Shown here piece by piece: positions 2,994-11,598 of a stretch of 13,336 nucleotides of DNA. The stretch is taken from contig NVWR01000002.1 in NCBI GenBank assembly GCA_002746275.1, positions 210,838 to 224,173 on the forward strand, written 5' to 3'. Source of the DNA: Rhodobiaceae bacterium (GTDB lineage: Bacteria > Pseudomonadota > Alphaproteobacteria > Parvibaculales > Parvibaculaceae). How positions within the stretch are numbered: position 1 is the stretch's first letter; every line of letters begins with the position of its first letter. Under the pieces are notes generated by a model that saw only the letters and a list, made by a program, of their open reading frames with translations, made no database searches and was not told the DNA's origin. Both the position numbers and the translations under genes were made by a program.

Positions 2994-4130
2994 TCAGACG
3001 CCGACGGGGAAGCGGATCGCAAAGGTCGCGCCCTCGCCGAGCGTGCTGTCGATGACAAGCTCCGCGCCGTGCCGATTGAGGATGTGTTTGACGATCGCAA
3101 GCCCCAGCCCCGTTCCCCCACGGGCACGGCTGGTTGCCACATCAATCCGGTAGAATCGTTCGGTCAACCGCGGGATATATTCACGTGCAATGCCCGGCCC
3201 AAAATCACGCACGGCGAGTTCCACCCACTGGCCGCCCGCGCCGTCGGTCATGACCCGGCCGGATATCTCGACGCGCTCGCCCTCCTGGCCATATTTGATG
3301 GCATTGTCGACCAGGTTTTGTACCACCTGATGCAGCTCATCCCAGTCACCCTTCACGGAGGGAAGGTCGGCGGGAATATCGACTTTGATCTCAACATTGT
3401 TCCGGGCAGCAATCGGCCCGATCACATCCACCACGTCGCGCGCTAATCCTTGCAGGCTGATTGTTGCGGTTGGCGGCTGATGCTCGCGCAATTCGATATG
3501 CCCCAGGGACAGGAGATCCTCGATCAGGGCCTGCATACGAGCGGCCTGCTCCCCCATGATGACGAGAAAACGCTCGCGGGCTTCCTCGTCATCCTTTGCT
3601 GGCCCTTGCAGGGTCTCAATAAACCCTAGGAGTGAAGCCAAAGGCGTGCGCAGTTCGTGGCTCGCATTGGCGACAAAATCCACCCGCATCTGCTCCACGC
3701 GCTTGGCATCAGAAATGTCATGCAGCACCAGGAGTGTTGTCGTCCCCCCATCCGCATCTCCCCCAAAATCCGTGGCTTTCACCGTCGATAGGGAAGCCTG
3801 ATAGTGATGCTCGACAGGAAAGGGCCGCTTAAATTCAACGCGTTCTGCCGCCCCGCCCTGTTGAATGCGCTCCAATGCTTCCAACACAGCGGATTCGCGA
3901 AGCATCGAGGAGAGGTGTTTCCCTTTAGCGCGTGGACCAAGGAAACTCTCCGCTGACCGATTGCAAAAAAGGATGCGTCCGTTTGCGCCTAGCAGAACAA
4001 CAGCGTCGGGCAATTGTTCCATCGCGGCATACACAATGCCCGGCGCGACATCAGGCGCAACAGAGGGTTGGGACGGATCGCTTGCGGGCGTGGGCACGCT
4101 GTCAGGGCCTCTGCCTTTATTCCTGTTCAT
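2994..4130 (-). CDS. phoR: Phosphate-regulon sensor histidine kinase PhoR, lacking membrane segments
   Basis: Kinase that phosphorylates PhoB under phosphate limitation, under control of the Pst transporter and PhoU. The 378-residue product has a Pro/Ser-rich polar N-terminus (1-30), a PAS domain (about 31-142), a HisKA dimerisation helix with phosphoacceptor H158 (SHELRTPL), an N-box (N272/N276 in QNLVDNAIKYG), and ATP-lid motifs DFGPGI (309-314) and GGTGLGLA (338-345). I prefer the ATG at 4130 because GGAG lies 6 bases before it. A GTG 12 bases further upstream has its Shine-Dalgarno sequence too close. An in-frame TGA at 4163-4161 closes the frame, so no transmembrane helix is encoded, whereas E. 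coli PhoR has two. It is first in a phoR-pstSCA array and divergent from the SDR gene. Confidence 0.9.
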   Translation of the reverse strand: MNRNKGRGPDSVPTPASDPSQPSVAPDVAPGIVYAAMEQLPDAVVLLGANGRILFCNRSAESFLGPRAKGKHLSSMLRESAVLEALERIQQGGAAERVEFKRPFPVEHHYQASLSTVKATDFGGDADGGTTTLLVLHDISDAKRVEQMRVDFVANASHELRTPLASLLGFIETLQGPAKDDEEARERFLVIMGEQAARMQALIEDLLSLGHIELREHQPPTATISLQGLARDVVDVIGPIAARNNVEIKVDIPADLPSVKGDWDELHQVVQNLVDNAIKYGQEGERVEISGRVMTDGAGGQWVELAVRDFGPGIAREYIPRLTERFYRIDVATSRARGGTGLGLAIVKHILNRHGAELVIDSTLGEGATFAIRFPVGV

Positions 4131-4158
4131 CTTTCGCTCCACTGCTCCTTCACGTTGC

Positions 4159-4342: not shown

Positions 4343-5173
4343 ATGACAAGCATTGCCGGAAAAGTCGCCGTTGTAACAGGCGCAGCCAGTGGCATAGGCC
4401 GAGCAACCGCCTGCCTGCTCGCTGCTGAAGGGGCTCGGCTTGCGATCACTGATGTGGATCGCGCCGGACTTGAAAAAACCGCCGAGACAATCCGCGCCGC
4501 TGGTGGGCAGGTGACGACCTACCTTGTTGATGTCGCCAATAAGGACGCAGTCTACGGGTTCGCGGATCAGGTTGCGGCCGACATGGGCGGGGCAGACATT
4601 GTTCTCAACAATGCCGGTGTCGCACAAATGGCGCGGGTTGAAGACCTGACCTACGACGATTTCGAATGGGTGATGAATATCGATTTCTGGGGCATGGTCT
4701 ATGGCACCAAAGCCTTCCTCCCCCAGATGCAGGCGAAGGGAGCCGGACACGTTATCAACGTCTCGTCGATTTTCGGTCTGATCGCCGTTCCCACCCAGGC
4801 TGCCTATAACTCGGCCAAGTTTGCCATTCGCGGCTTCACCGAAGCATTGCGGCTGGAACTCAAAGACACTGACATCAACGTGTCCAGTGTTCACCCCGGC
4901 GGGATCAAAACCAATATTGTTCGCAATGCGCGCTTTTTGCAGAGCACAAGTGTTGGCGAGCGTGAGGAAGCTGTTAGCGGGTTTGATAAACTGGCTCGGA
5001 CAACGCCGGAAAAAGCGGCGATGACCATCGTGAAGGGCATCAAGAAAAACAAGCCACGCATCCTGATCGGGTTTGATGCCCGTTTGGTTGATTGGGTACA
5101 GCGGCTATTACCGACAAGATACGGCTTCATGTTCAAAGGTCAGGCTGAAGATTCTGGCTTTAAACTCGACTAA
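4343..5173 (+). CDS. Classical short-chain dehydrogenase/reductase (SDR)
   Basis: NAD(P)-dependent oxidoreductase of the classical SDR family, probably cytoplasmic and acting on an alcohol, ketone or aldehyde. The substrate is not predictable from the sequence. In 276 residues it shows the cofactor motif TGAASGIG (12-19), an acidic residue after strand 2 (D37, favouring NAD over NADP), NNAG (89-92), N112 of the catalytic tetrad, S141/S142, Y155 and K159 in YNSAK, and HPGGIKTN (184-191). The C-terminal about 50 residues, with a basic stretch (KGIKKNKPR) then hydrophobic and aromatic positions, could form a substrate cap or membrane contact. GGGGG at 4329-4333 is the likely ribosome site. It lies 22 bases before the ABM gene and is probably co-transcribed with it. 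The neighbouring TetR operon suggests a role in oxidising or reducing a product of that pathway, which is inference. Confidence 0.93.
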   Translation: MTSIAGKVAVVTGAASGIGRATACLLAAEGARLAITDVDRAGLEKTAETIRAAGGQVTTYLVDVANKDAVYGFADQVAADMGGADIVLNNAGVAQMARVEDLTYDDFEWVMNIDFWGMVYGTKAFLPQMQAKGAGHVINVSSIFGLIAVPTQAAYNSAKFAIRGFTEALRLELKDTDINVSSVHPGGIKTNIVRNARFLQSTSVGEREEAVSGFDKLARTTPEKAAMTIVKGIKKNKPRILIGFDARLVDWVQRLLPTRYGFMFKGQAEDSGFKLD

Positions 5174-5195: not shown

Positions 5196-5501
5196 ATGTT
5201 GGTGGTAACCGGAATTATCGAAGTCAGCGAAGACAGCATTGAGGCCGCCCGTGGCCTCATCGGGCCGATGGGGACTGCCAGCCGGGCAGAGGCGGGCTGT
5301 CACGCCTACGCATTTTATCAAAACCTGGAAGAGCCCACACAAATCCGCATCTATGAGGAATGGGAAAATCAGGCGGCTCTGGAGGCCCATTTCGCAACCC
5401 CTCATATGGCAACCTTTGCTGAAGGGTTGGGCAAGCTCGAACTCAAATCAATGGATGTGGTCAAATTTGACCGTGGAGAAACCTCACCCGTCCGCGGATG
5501 A
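5196..5501 (+). CDS. Small antibiotic-biosynthesis-monooxygenase (ABM) fold protein
   Basis: A 101-residue protein of the dimeric alpha-beta barrel ABM superfamily (putative quinol monooxygenase/YgiN-like). Members include cofactor-free quinol oxygenases, haem-degrading enzymes and non-enzymatic binders. The pattern is characteristic: strand VVTGIIEV, helix SIEAARGLIGPM, EAGCHAYAFYQN, strand IRIYEEW, then WENQAALEAHFATPHM (56-71) with H65 and H70. The start at 5196 has an ideal AGGAGG six bases before it; a longer reading frame from 5073 runs inside the SDR gene and is unlikely. It follows the SDR stop by 22 bases. Its last 18 bases overlap convergently with the end of the TetR gene. The actual reaction is unknown. 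Confidence 0.88.
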   Translation: MLVVTGIIEVSEDSIEAARGLIGPMGTASRAEAGCHAYAFYQNLEEPTQIRIYEEWENQAALEAHFATPHMATFAEGLGKLELKSMDVVKFDRGETSPVRG

Positions 5502-6134
5502 GGCCGTAAACTCTCGCGCCAGAACACGTCGGGCCGCCCGGTCGAAATCAGGATCAAGATAGGGTGCCAGCACGTCAAAGAGCTGAGACATGCCGCTACC
5601 CATGTCGGCGCGGACAATCGCGTGGTCGGGTGATGATATTTGGACGTGACGTATCCAGTTACTCCAGATCAGCCAGGTATTGAGTGCTACTGAGCGAAAA
5701 CCATTGCGCCCGCGTGGCTTGCTCATATTGCCATCTTCAGCCACCTGCCGGGCGATGGCTTCCAGGTTTTTGAGCGCCCAGGCTTGCATCTCCTGATAGC
5801 GGCGCGACAGGTCTTCATCACGTCGCAGAAGATTAAGCAGGCCGCCAAATATAAATCGATATTCCCACACGACATCGAAGCTTCGGAGATAGAAGCCTGC
5901 AAAGCGGGCCGGGCCGATAGGCGGATCGACATCAACGGTGAGGACATCTCGAAAGGCGCGCTCCAGCCCGTCGAACAGAACGCGGATAATCTCTTCCTTG
6001 TTCTTAAAATGATAATAGAGATTGCCTGGGCTGATCCCGAGAGCGTCGGCGATCTGGGTCGTGCCGATCGCCTGCGCGCCATGCGCATTCATCAGCCTAC
6101 GCGCCTCCTCCAGAATACGGTCCCGATTGTTCAT
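5484..6134 (-). CDS. TetR-family transcriptional regulator
   Basis: A 216-residue repressor-type protein with an N-terminal TetR DNA-binding domain: helix 1 RDRILEEARRLMNAHG (4-19), and the helix-turn-helix around TTQIADALGISPGNLYYHF (25-43). The C-terminal part (about 50-216) is the ligand and dimerisation domain, rich in aromatic residues (for example VVWEYRFIFGGLLNLL and NTWLIWSNWIRHV), which suggests a hydrophobic ligand. The start has AAGGAGA just upstream. It is divergent from the diiron/SOI-like operon, and the gap holds two tandem 16-bp operators over that operon's promoter. The likely job is to repress the operon, and probably itself, until a lipophilic inducer is present. The ligand is unknown. 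Confidence 0.93.
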   Translation of the reverse strand: MNNRDRILEEARRLMNAHGAQAIGTTQIADALGISPGNLYYHFKNKEEIIRVLFDGLERAFRDVLTVDVDPPIGPARFAGFYLRSFDVVWEYRFIFGGLLNLLRRDEDLSRRYQEMQAWALKNLEAIARQVAEDGNMSKPRGRNGFRSVALNTWLIWSNWIRHVQISSPDHAIVRADMGSGMSQLFDVLAPYLDPDFDRAARRVLAREFTASSADG

Positions 6135-6184: not shown

Positions 6185-6212
6185 TTGACTTCGTCATTTT
6201 TAGAGGTATAAC
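6185..6212 (+). promoter_or_regulatory. Sigma-70 promoter of the diiron/SOI-like operon
   Basis: TTGACT (6185-6190) and TATAAC (6207-6212) each match the sigma-70 consensus at 5 of 6 positions and are 16 bp apart. Transcription would begin near 6219, about 38 bases before the start codon. The -10 element lies inside the first TetR-type operator. Confidence 0.75.
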
Positions 6213-6239
6213 TCTATTTAGAGGTTTTCCTCTAAATAG
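6201..6239. promoter_or_regulatory. Tandem TetR-type operators
   Basis: Two copies of TAGAG-N6-CTCTA stand at 6201-6216 and 6219-6234, with centres 18 bp apart. Their cores are alike (GTATAA and GTTTTC). The second copy extends to a perfect 11-bp inverted repeat with a TTTT spacer (arms 6214-6224 and 6229-6239). Copy 1 covers the -10 element and copy 2 the expected transcription start. This is the classical layout for repression by the adjacent TetR protein. Binding by that protein is inferred from position. Confidence 0.75.
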
Positions 6240-6256: not shown

Positions 6257-7195
6257 ATGTCTGATGCAATTCTTGACACCTCGTCCCGTATGGTTGTGCG
6301 GCGCGTTCCGTTTTCTTACACAGACACGGCCACTGCAGGTACAGCCCCCGGACATTGGAACACCAACAGCCCCGAATTCTCACAGATCGTGAATTCAGCT
6401 TCTTTGGCGATGCCCTATCTGGAGCCCTATCTCATCCGCAGCATGCGCGAAGCCCGCAAGCAGATAACCGACCTCGCTCTTCAGAAAGACCTGGATCTTT
6501 ATGTGGCGCAGGAAGCCACGCATTTTCGCCAGCACAGAAAATTCAATGACACGCTCGCAGCTGCTGGTTATCAGGCCATCGGTCCAATCGAAGACAGGCT
6601 TCGTCGTGACTATGAGGTGTTAGGAACCAAGCGCTCTTTGCGTTTCAACCTTGCCTACGCGGAAGGGTTTGAGTCCATGGCGCTGGCCATTGGCCATATG
6701 CTTATCGAGGACCGTGTTTTTCTTTTTGGTGACAGTGACCCTGCGGTTGCATCGCTGGTGCTTTGGCATTTTGTCGAAGAGATCGAGCATAAGAATGTGG
6801 CGTTTGACGTCTTTGCCCATCTGCATGGCAGCTATTTCTGGCGCATGGTGGGGCTGGTCTACGCGACCTCCCACATTTTCTGGCGCACAGGTCAGGGCTA
6901 CCGCGCCCTTCTGAAGGAAGATGGCCTGTGGCGCGACCTGAAGAGCCGCCTACGCTTAGCAAAGGTTCTGGTGCGCATCATCAAGAACATTCTGCCGCGA
7001 TGGTTTCACATCTGGCGGCCCAGCTATCACCCTTCCCAGGTTGCCGATCCCAAATGGGGCCGTGACTGGGCGAAGCTGTTTGACGCCAATCCGGATGGGG
7101 CTGCCAATCTCGACACATCCCGTCTCAGAGAAACCGTTCCCGTCGCAGTCCCTTCCTCTGTCGTTGGAACACAAGCACAAAAGGACGGCCTATGA
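6257..7195 (+). CDS. PF10118-type 'predicted metal-dependent hydrolase' with ferritin-like diiron motif
   Basis: A 312-residue protein that I assign to the family usually named 'predicted metal-dependent hydrolase' (COG3687/PF10118). What the sequence shows is the ligand set of a ferritin-like four-helix diiron site: E56 in a first helix (PYLEPYLIRSM), E86 and H89 (QEATHFRQH), E136/E139 (YAEGFES), and E175 and H178 (EEIEH). That pattern is used by diiron oxygenases, desaturases and related oxidases. H93 and H171 are further candidate ligands. A later amphipathic stretch (about 193-255, rich in W, F and R) could touch a membrane. The start has GGAGGA upstream. The stop overlaps the next gene (ATGA), so the two are coupled. 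The family name fits poorly with the motif; an oxygenase acting on a lipid-like substrate is my inference. Confidence 0.85.
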   Translation: MSDAILDTSSRMVVRRVPFSYTDTATAGTAPGHWNTNSPEFSQIVNSASLAMPYLEPYLIRSMREARKQITDLALQKDLDLYVAQEATHFRQHRKFNDTLAAAGYQAIGPIEDRLRRDYEVLGTKRSLRFNLAYAEGFESMALAIGHMLIEDRVFLFGDSDPAVASLVLWHFVEEIEHKNVAFDVFAHLHGSYFWRMVGLVYATSHIFWRTGQGYRALLKEDGLWRDLKSRLRLAKVLVRIIKNILPRWFHIWRPSYHPSQVADPKWGRDWAKLFDANPDGAANLDTSRLRETVPVAVPSSVVGTQAQKDGL

Positions 7196-7704
7196 CCATC
7201 GCCACACGCTCTTCAATCCTCCCTCGCATGCAAACGCTTCTGTTTTTGAACGGCGTTGGACTGTTTACCGTCGGGCTGGCCTTTGGCTGGGTCTGGTTCT
7301 TTCATCTGCTGGGGGAAATTGTCTTGTGGCCCTTGCCTATCCAAATAGAGGTGAACATTCCCGGTGATGCTCGGTCGTTCCGGATGGGCCATATGGAGGC
7401 CATTACGCAAAGCCTCATGCTCATGGCGTTGGCCTTCGGTGGACAGTTCATGGCACTCAGCAAAAAGGAGTTCACCGCCCTGTTTTGGTCTGCCCTCATC
7501 ACGGCTTGGCTCTTCACCCTACCGGCCATGGCCAATACCTTCTTTGGGACACGCGGTCTTGCGTTTGGAGGCGGCCCGTTCAAAGAGAGCCTGGCGAATG
7601 ATGTGATCTTTATTCTGGGTTGGCCGCCCGTGCTCTGCGTCCATATTCTCTTCGGTCTTGCAGCGATTGGCCTTTTCCGTCACTTGAAGACGCAACAGGC
7701 CTGA
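7192..7704 (+). CDS. Four-helix membrane protein resembling styrene oxide isomerase
   Basis: A 170-residue integral membrane protein with hydrophobic segments at about 15-45, 70-89, 94-115 and 138-163. Size, topology and two local motifs recall styrene oxide isomerase (StyC/SOI), a haem-containing membrane enzyme that turns aryl epoxides into aldehydes. The motifs are the segment IEVNIPGD (52-59) followed by an Arg and a His (H67 in RMGHME), and RGLAFGGGPF (121-130). In SOI a His at the matching place binds haem. Other SOI active-site residues, as far as I recall them, are not kept: Asn appears as Q73, and the position of the catalytic Tyr is not Tyr. Substrate and chemistry may therefore differ. 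It is translationally coupled to the diiron gene by a 4-base overlap. The similarity is judged from memory, so the family call needs confirming; that it is a coupled membrane protein is secure. Confidence 0.65.
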   Translation: MTIATRSSILPRMQTLLFLNGVGLFTVGLAFGWVWFFHLLGEIVLWPLPIQIEVNIPGDARSFRMGHMEAITQSLMLMALAFGGQFMALSKKEFTALFWSALITAWLFTLPAMANTFFGTRGLAFGGGPFKESLANDVIFILGWPPVLCVHILFGLAAIGLFRHLKTQQA

Positions 7705-10704: not shown

Positions 10705-11598
10705 ATGACAAGCACCTCCGCCCTTATCGGTCCTGGCCCCACGTCACACACGTATTTCTCCCAGCGCCTGCGGCTCCATTATGTCGATTGGGGCAATGAG
10801 GAGGCAGAGCCGCTCCTGCTCATTCATGGCGGGCGCGATCATTGCCGAAATTGGGATTGGGTGGCTCAGTCCTTTCGCGACACGCATCACATTATCGCGC
10901 CGGATCTTCGCGGTCATGGTGACAGCCAATGGATGATCGGCGGCACCTATGATCTGACCGATTTCGTGTACGACATTGCGCAACTCATTCACCAAAAGAA
11001 ACTGAACCCGGTGACGATCATCGCCCATTCGATGGGCGGGTCAGTCGCCCTGCGGTATGCAGGTCTCTATCCGGAGACAGTGAAAAAGCTTGTCGTTATC
11101 GAGGGGCTTGGCCCGTCGCCCAAAATGATCGAAGACCGCATGAAGACGCCTATCTATGAGCGTACCGCCCAATGGGTAGAGCAGATGCGCAAGCTCTCAA
11201 GCCGCCTTCCCCGGCGCTACGACAGCGTGCTGGATGCCTTCAAGCGGATGCAGGACGAAAACCCCCATCTGTCGCCAGAACATGCCCGGCACTTGACGGT
11301 GCATGGGGTCTCTCAGAATGAAGATGGCACCTATAGCTGGAAATTCGACAATTACGTCCGGGCCTTTTCGCCCAACGGGTTCAACCCGGAAGAAACACGA
11401 GAATTTTGGGCACGGATCACCTGCCCTACACTCCTCATCCGCGGGACAGAGAGCTGGGCAAGCGACCCCTTAGAAGATGGTAGAGCCAAGCACTTTGCAA
11501 ATGCCCGTGTTGAAAGCATCGAGAAGGCCGGTCACTGGGTTCATCATGATCAGTTGGGCGTGTTTCTCGATATGACGAAGGAATTTCTTGCAGATTAG
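10705..11598 (+). CDS. Alpha/beta-fold hydrolase
   Basis: A 297-residue cytoplasmic serine hydrolase of the MhpC/epoxide-hydrolase-like group; the substrate is unknown. Visible motifs are the oxyanion-hole segment LLLIHGGRDH (37-46), the strand and turn IIAPDLRGHGDS (63-74), the nucleophile elbow AHSMGGS with S109, and the C-terminal H277 in KAGHWVHHD. The acid is most likely D254 or E249 near RGTESWASD. A helical cap lies at about 140-235. Because the nucleophile is Ser rather than Asp, it is not a classical epoxide hydrolase or haloalkane dehalogenase; an esterase, lactonase or C-C hydrolase is more likely. AAGGAG lies 11 bases before the ATG. It follows the kinase by 84 bases with its own candidate promoter and overlaps the next gene tail-to-tail by 4 bases. 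Confidence 0.92.
   Translation: MTSTSALIGPGPTSHTYFSQRLRLHYVDWGNEEAEPLLLIHGGRDHCRNWDWVAQSFRDTHHIIAPDLRGHGDSQWMIGGTYDLTDFVYDIAQLIHQKKLNPVTIIAHSMGGSVALRYAGLYPETVKKLVVIEGLGPSPKMIEDRMKTPIYERTAQWVEQMRKLSSRLPRRYDSVLDAFKRMQDENPHLSPEHARHLTVHGVSQNEDGTYSWKFDNYVRAFSPNGFNPEETREFWARITCPTLLIRGTESWASDPLEDGRAKHFANARVESIEKAGHWVHHDQLGVFLDMTKEFLAD

Follow-up and report, generated by a model that had tools for sequence, protein, structure and literature searches.

Two overlapping genes in a 13,336-nucleotide stretch of the Rhodobiaceae bacterium contig NVWR01000002.1 (the window, part of a 3.45 Mb genome) encode a protein of the Pfam family PF10118 and a relative of styrene oxide isomerase (SOI), the haem membrane enzyme also known as StyC. 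The features of this pair are:

6257..7195, forward strand: PF10118 gene (gene 1), 312 amino acids (Pfam PF10118, 202 bits), predicted soluble ferritin-like diiron oxygenase
7192..7704, forward strand: gene for an SOI-superfamily membrane protein (gene 2), 170 amino acids, with the predicted haem b ligand H67 at codon 7390-7392
7192..7195, forward strand: ATGA stop-start overlap of both genes, seen in the sequence

The original prediction, made by a model from the DNA alone, had described a ferritin-like diiron protein coupled by a 4-base overlap to an SOI-like membrane protein; both open reading frames (ORFs) and the shared ATGA are indeed present, with a ribosome-site-like AAAAGGA just 5' of the overlap.

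The gene 1 product matches PF10118 far above the gathering cut-off (202 versus 33.2 bits), and this is its sole Pfam match at E 0.001, with no AurF/CmlI family recovered; the PF10118 profile likewise finds no match among the Protein Data Bank (PDB) chains. In an alignment of 122 PF10118 rows, some of which occur in more than one of its groups, E56, E86, H89, E139, E175 and H178 are invariant, as is Q85, and H171, four residues before E175, is kept in 121 rows, the remaining one having an X. The diiron ligands originally proposed thus stand at E56, E86-H89 and E175-H178, the conserved residue of the third helix is E139 rather than its alternative E136, and H171 has to be added, so that the predicted ligand set consists of three histidines and four glutamates (E56, E86, H89, E139, H171, E175, H178). 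The structure model (pLDDT 92.4, pTM 0.90) is a helix bundle with the E/ExxH/E/ExxH residues on four helices, as in ferritin-like diiron proteins: 39-67 (E56), 73-102 (E86/H89), 128-151 (E139) and 162-177 (H171/E175), with H178 just beyond. Its PDB neighbours include CmlI, R2, sMMOH, AurF and R2lox, and the best 50 listed all belong to diiron or dimetal kinds (CmlI/AurF, R2, sMMOH and R2lox), so that comparison with diiron oxygenases bears out the expected fold; a common site for the predicted ligands is judged from their placement on the bundle helices. Gene 1 very probably encodes a diiron oxygenase or oxidase. One more residue, H206, is found in all 78 SOI-paired PF10118 proteins compared with 7 of 32 others and, judging from this distribution, may mark the SOI-paired function.

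The gene 2 product reaches 38.3 bits (E 1.2e-9) against the NCBIfam StyC model (NF045734), short of the curated cut-off of 150, and its family profile matches the solved SOI structure 8pnu (E 6.1e-18). In alignment with SOI, H67 falls on the axial haem histidine H58 and the RGL motif on R112-G-L114, which makes R121 the predicted haem propionate arginine; the H58 position is histidine in 89 of 89 SOI-superfamily rows, and the R112 position is kept in 87. The modelled structure consists of four long helices, spanning 11-40, 60-86, 91-118 and 144-169, plus a short one at 134-142, and detectable homology combined with the SOI fold places the protein in the wider SOI superfamily. The pocket is another matter: SOI residues N64, D95, N99 and Y103 correspond to Q73, T104, F108 and A112. 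Among 60 PF10118-linked SOI-like rows, 56 have F at position 99 and only 4 have Y at 103, whereas the six StyAB-linked SOI rows keep N64, N99 and Y103, as do some PF10118-linked members (L052 and L060). The proposed resemblance to SOI therefore holds for the fold, H67 and the RGL motif, but the SOI-specific catalytic residues are lost, and ‘SOI-like’, as used here of a sequence, denotes family and haem site, not demonstrated chemistry. The SOI-like family carries the precomputed label PF26512, which none of the open-access papers searched mentions. In one phylum sample, the StyC model has matches in 3 of 299 genomes, the window's own included, none above the cut-off, and a search of plasmids with the window SOI-like protein (P0002) gave no match. 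The window genome also contains a second, distant SOI-like gene (G000:C2:140360-140800; locus L143:5870-6322), preceded by a gene for a 441-amino-acid protein with a flavoprotein-like N terminus by eye and no Pfam or NCBIfam match at E 0.001.

The features proposed for the two genes stand far beyond chance, and the pairing of the two families is real as well. A genome scan that used motifs of the window's clade, and is accordingly biased toward it, confirmed 100 places, of which the best 80 were retained to give 79 loci (L089 and L091 lie on one contig, L088 and L136 come from one assembly); in 66 of these, a profile search finds PF10118 next to the SOI-like gene and in the same orientation, the profile envelopes being 12-152 bases apart. 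PF10118 precedes the SOI-like gene in 40 of the 66 loci and follows it in 26, which answers in the affirmative, and in both gene orders, the question raised at the outset of whether the families stay adjacent. In a search of 61 genomes, 26 had a P0002 match, and in the loci returned PF10118 adjoins every P0002-like gene apart from those of L022, which is truncated by the contig end, and of the distant locus L028; the distant locus L029 also lacks an adjacent PF10118, and the gene order is reversed in L025. A class sample of 385 genomes, with L051/L152 added because at most six candidates were scored per genome, and with the matches compared by hand, has PF10118 above the cut-off in 34 genomes; PF10118 adjoins 21 of the 41 SOI-like matches there, which places pairs in 17 of the 23 SOI-bearing genomes. 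Seen from the other side, 19 of the 66 listed above-cut-off PF10118 places adjoin an SOI-like match and 47 do not (hand count). In another phylum sample, the A3 profile has matches in 6 of 398 genomes, half of which (3) have PF10118 beside the match. Further pairs occur at L218, L219, L226 and L227. Paired genes come from many Pseudomonadota, along with Myxococcota/Deltaproteobacteria records; the window's relatives are, by record, Rhodobiaceae, Parvibaculum and Candidatus Phaeomarinobacter, and the window is accordingly regarded as alphaproteobacterial.

In a tree of 89 SOI-like proteins (a quick search with long branches flagged by the program, where the label ‘none’ can reflect a short flank), the six StyAB-linked rows cluster in a single branch, and the 60 PF10118-linked rows fall in four deep places. 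The mirror-distance correlation over 44 pairs is 0.90, a value that species descent alone could yield, and it is not counted as proof. Nor is gene fusion: the only long protein found, P0122, is frameshift-like, with a PF10118 match of 107 residues that ends before the SOI-like part. PF10118 and the SOI-like proteins are very likely a functional pair. Variants of the arrangement include one PF10118 gene followed by two tandem SOI-like genes in three genomes of one genus (L005, L006 and L009) and, in the Zhongshania genome of L109, two consecutive PF10118 genes flanked by two SOI-like genes (L218 and L225). At L214:4418-6312, a PF10118 gene near the SOI-paired type (E 1.4e-105) overlaps a gene that by eye resembles a zinc alcohol dehydrogenase; that genome has its SOI-like genes at other places, a solitary one and one next to another PF10118 gene. 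Of 20 PF10118 contexts, mostly away from SOI-like genes, all but L199, L204, L209 and L213, where no PF10118 ORF was retained, were judged by eye from N termini, and no clearly recurrent partner was seen in them.

The 13 loci without an adjacent PF10118, of which L088 is a cut locus, are informative about the role of the partner. In five of them (L101, L102, L103, L107 and L109), a protein of the flavin adenine dinucleotide (FAD)/NAD(P)-binding type lies 12-553 bases from the SOI-like gene, split across frames in L101 and on the opposite strand in L109. Such a protein is found in the flank of 5 of the 13 unpaired loci versus none of the 66 paired ones (Fisher p 5.7e-5, uncorrected for descent), and L101, L103/L107 and L109 occupy separate places in the SOI-like tree, from which L102 is absent. 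Mutual exclusion is not complete, given that two paired loci outside the 79-locus set, L145 and L046, carry an FAD-type protein nearby. At L149, an FAD-type protein lies next to the one SOI-like protein whose StyC score exceeds the cut-off (160.6 bits). When profile A5 for PF10118 was run on the 12 uncut genomes without an adjacent pair, no match was obtained in those of L101, L102, L103 and L107, the completeness of which is not stated; copies of 336-402 bits were found in those of L106, L108, L133 (with an internal stop) and L134, the copies in those of L084, L087 and L120 do not exceed about 204 bits, and in the L109 genome the FAD-type protein and a high-scoring copy are both present. Additional SOI-like genes lie next to the high-scoring copies in the L106 and L109 genomes (the Zhongshania cluster described above is separate from the copy next to the FAD-type protein), and those of L108, L133 and L134 have no SOI-like gene in their 1.5-kb flanks.

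The FAD-type proteins are uncharacterised and, where named, are called NAD(P)/FAD-dependent oxidoreductase or similar; their N termini weakly match a thiazole biosynthetic enzyme as well as the flavin monooxygenases 4a9w and 4c5o, and they show no StyA match at E 1e-8. Two relatives of the SOI-linked FAD-type protein, P0230 and P0234, have alpha/beta hydrolase domains in the same chain according to precomputed Pfam. StyA and a flavin reductase adjoin StyC in four named control loci; among 166 loci, StyA/StyB matches are confined to L050, L058, L153 and L163-L166, and none lies beside the window pair. That an FAD-type protein takes the place of PF10118, and that StyAB occupies it beside StyC, suggests that PF10118 supplies the oxygenation step. 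SOI-family proteins have as neighbour StyA, the FAD-type protein or PF10118, redox-type proteins unrelated to one another; the best account of this is that the neighbour, whichever it is, carries out an oxidation and that the haem protein performs the step after it.

Many of the pairs have a TetR gene and a candidate operator of shared type next to them. The neighbouring features of the window are:

5484..6134, reverse strand: divergent TetR-family regulator gene (PF00440 and PF13972)
6199..6234, no strand assigned: two tandem 18-bp palindrome-like repeats of the TAGAGGN4CCTCTA type, candidate TetR operator (repeat search)
4343..5173, forward strand: short-chain dehydrogenase/reductase (SDR) oxidoreductase gene (PF00106), a neighbour only
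10705..11598, forward strand: alpha/beta hydrolase gene (PF00561), a neighbour

The operator-like pattern has two matches in the window compared with 0.21 expected. With the window's pattern required at 10 of 12 positions, similar sites lie at most 200 bases before the PF10118 match in 10 of 16 hand-chosen relatives, including a gammaproteobacterium (L070), versus 0.07 of 16 by shuffles; all 10 are among the 12 of these loci that have a related TetR by tblastn, and the 4 that lack one have no such site. Because these sites track related TetR genes, which occur in 17 of the 79 loci (tblastn, E 1e-20), a small molecule is the probable inducer of the two genes. The SDR, to which the original prediction had assigned the handling of an aldehyde or ketone, has counterparts of at least 72% identity in 16 of the 79 loci, which are without exception Parvibaculum/Rhodobiaceae-type or unclassified alphaproteobacterial records, and a further one at 35%; this is local synteny, and a third pathway step is not supported outside such loci. 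Relatives of the alpha/beta hydrolase are found in 16 of the 79 loci, among them a Sphingomonadaceae record (L142, 58%), and in three Parvibaculum loci (L080, L094 and L096) the gene comes immediately after the pair. A Pfam tally of 99 flanking ORFs, hand-picked with long ones excluded from 151 in 32 chosen loci of the 79, revealed no fixed reductase or pathway neighbour, with no family seen more than five times (TetR 5, glutathione S-transferase 4); these ORFs are the longest non-overlapping frames, so that some real genes may be missed. The window also contains genes for a PstC-type permease (235-1617) and a PhoR-like kinase (2994-4142), so that the pair adjoins a phosphate-regulon block; synteny of the kinase extends to many Parvibaculum/Rhodobiaceae-type loci.

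These observations can be accommodated by a TetR-controlled two-enzyme module. The PF10118 protein would be a soluble ferritin-like diiron oxygenase that, once loaded with metal at an AurF/CmlI-type 3-His/4-Glu site, inserts oxygen from O2 into a lipophilic substrate, most likely giving an epoxide. The gene 2 product, a putative haem b membrane enzyme of the SOI superfamily and probably a trimer like SOI, would accept the oxygenated product, perhaps by direct hand-over, and rearrange it in a Meinwald-type reaction, with the ferric haem as the Lewis acid that converts the epoxide to a carbonyl compound, in a pocket presumably adapted to a different substrate from styrene oxide. This full course, diiron epoxidation followed by haem-catalysed rearrangement, is the best explanation at hand, and we put it at about even chances. 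What chiefly weighs against it is that most PF10118-linked members have lost the SOI pocket.

This loss would be expected if the SOI-like protein were not an isomerase at all but a small haem b cytochrome and membrane anchor that passes quinol electrons to the diiron enzyme, and no reductase gene is fixed beside the diiron-type gene 1. Such a role nevertheless appears unlikely: the same SOI subclade also adjoins FAD/NAD(P)-type proteins, which are expected to draw electrons from NAD(P)H themselves, the PF10118-linked L052 and L060 retain the SOI residues, and the 47 of 66 PF10118 matches in the class sample that adjoin no SOI-like match indicate that these proteins do not generally depend on one. 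The remodelling of gene 2 where SOI holds the epoxide oxygen also fits a different product of the diiron enzyme, such as a hydroperoxide, an alcohol or a chlorinated compound, which the haem protein would isomerise or dehydrate in the manner of haem hydroperoxide isomerases. The QExxH and HxxEExxH motifs of gene 1 are, moreover, close to the CylC/NocO halogenase signature QExxH/HxxDExxH given in passages of PMC12101540. Considering that the sole characterised SOI-family members act on epoxides, and that no conserved biosynthetic neighbour was seen among the 99 flanking ORFs of the 32 loci, this scheme is rather improbable. Finally, PF10118 could be the metal-dependent hydrolase of its Pfam name (Metal_hydrol), also placed among protease groups in passages of PMC8960859, with a chance or housekeeping neighbour; the diiron ligand set and fold, and an adjacency in 66 of 79 loci that persists despite changes of gene order, leave this reading with very little probability.

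The gene usually labelled a metal-dependent hydrolase thus resembles instead a two-iron, O2-using enzyme, and the company of an SOI relative suggests an oxidise-then-rearrange pair. The broader proposition, that PF10118 is a large, misnamed family of stand-alone diiron oxygenases, with a new two-metal module for oxygenation and rearrangement in its SOI-paired branch (a diiron epoxidase and a haem Meinwald isomerase whose pocket has been redesigned), and that the oxygenase of this module was swapped several times for an unrelated flavoprotein, is offered tentatively, as a possibility a little short of even. If true, it would provide a testable function for PF10118 and a source of new epoxide-to-carbonyl enzymes. 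Searches of the open-access literature turned up no PF10118/SOI pairing in print, and the SOI authors state, in passages of their report, that no substantial structural relative of SOI was found.

Among the known systems, the closest to gene 1 in site architecture are the N-oxygenases AurF, CmlI and DnfA, which, according to passages of PMC9478400, have the ligand pattern E/ExxH/E/HxxxExxH; the seven-residue order, the three histidines and four carboxylates and the bundle fold are shared, whereas there is no sequence-family match and AurF D135 corresponds to Q85. The CylC/NocO dimetal halogenases share QExxH and a HxxxExxH motif with gene 1 but have HxxDExxH in place of HxxEExxH, a comparison of published motifs rather than of CylC sequences; passages of the CylC diversity paper (PMC8406957) revealed no link to PF10118. 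In gene layout, the counterpart is StyA/StyB/StyC (Pseudomonas sp. VLB120 pSTY and Rhodococcus opacus 1CP), where an oxygenase gene is likewise followed by a gene for an SOI-family haem membrane protein, and StyC shares with gene 2 the fold, the haem histidine and the propionate arginine, although gene 2 scores only 38 bits against the cut-off of 150 and lacks the pocket residues of the StyAB-linked proteins. The characterised SOI members are known from styrene degradation, beside a flavin oxygenase, the FAD-dependent StyA with StyB, whereas here the haem family adjoins a diiron-type protein. The FAD/NAD(P)-binding oxidoreductase of L101, L102, L103, L107, L109 and L149, although unrelated to PF10118, holds the same partner place beside the SOI-like gene.
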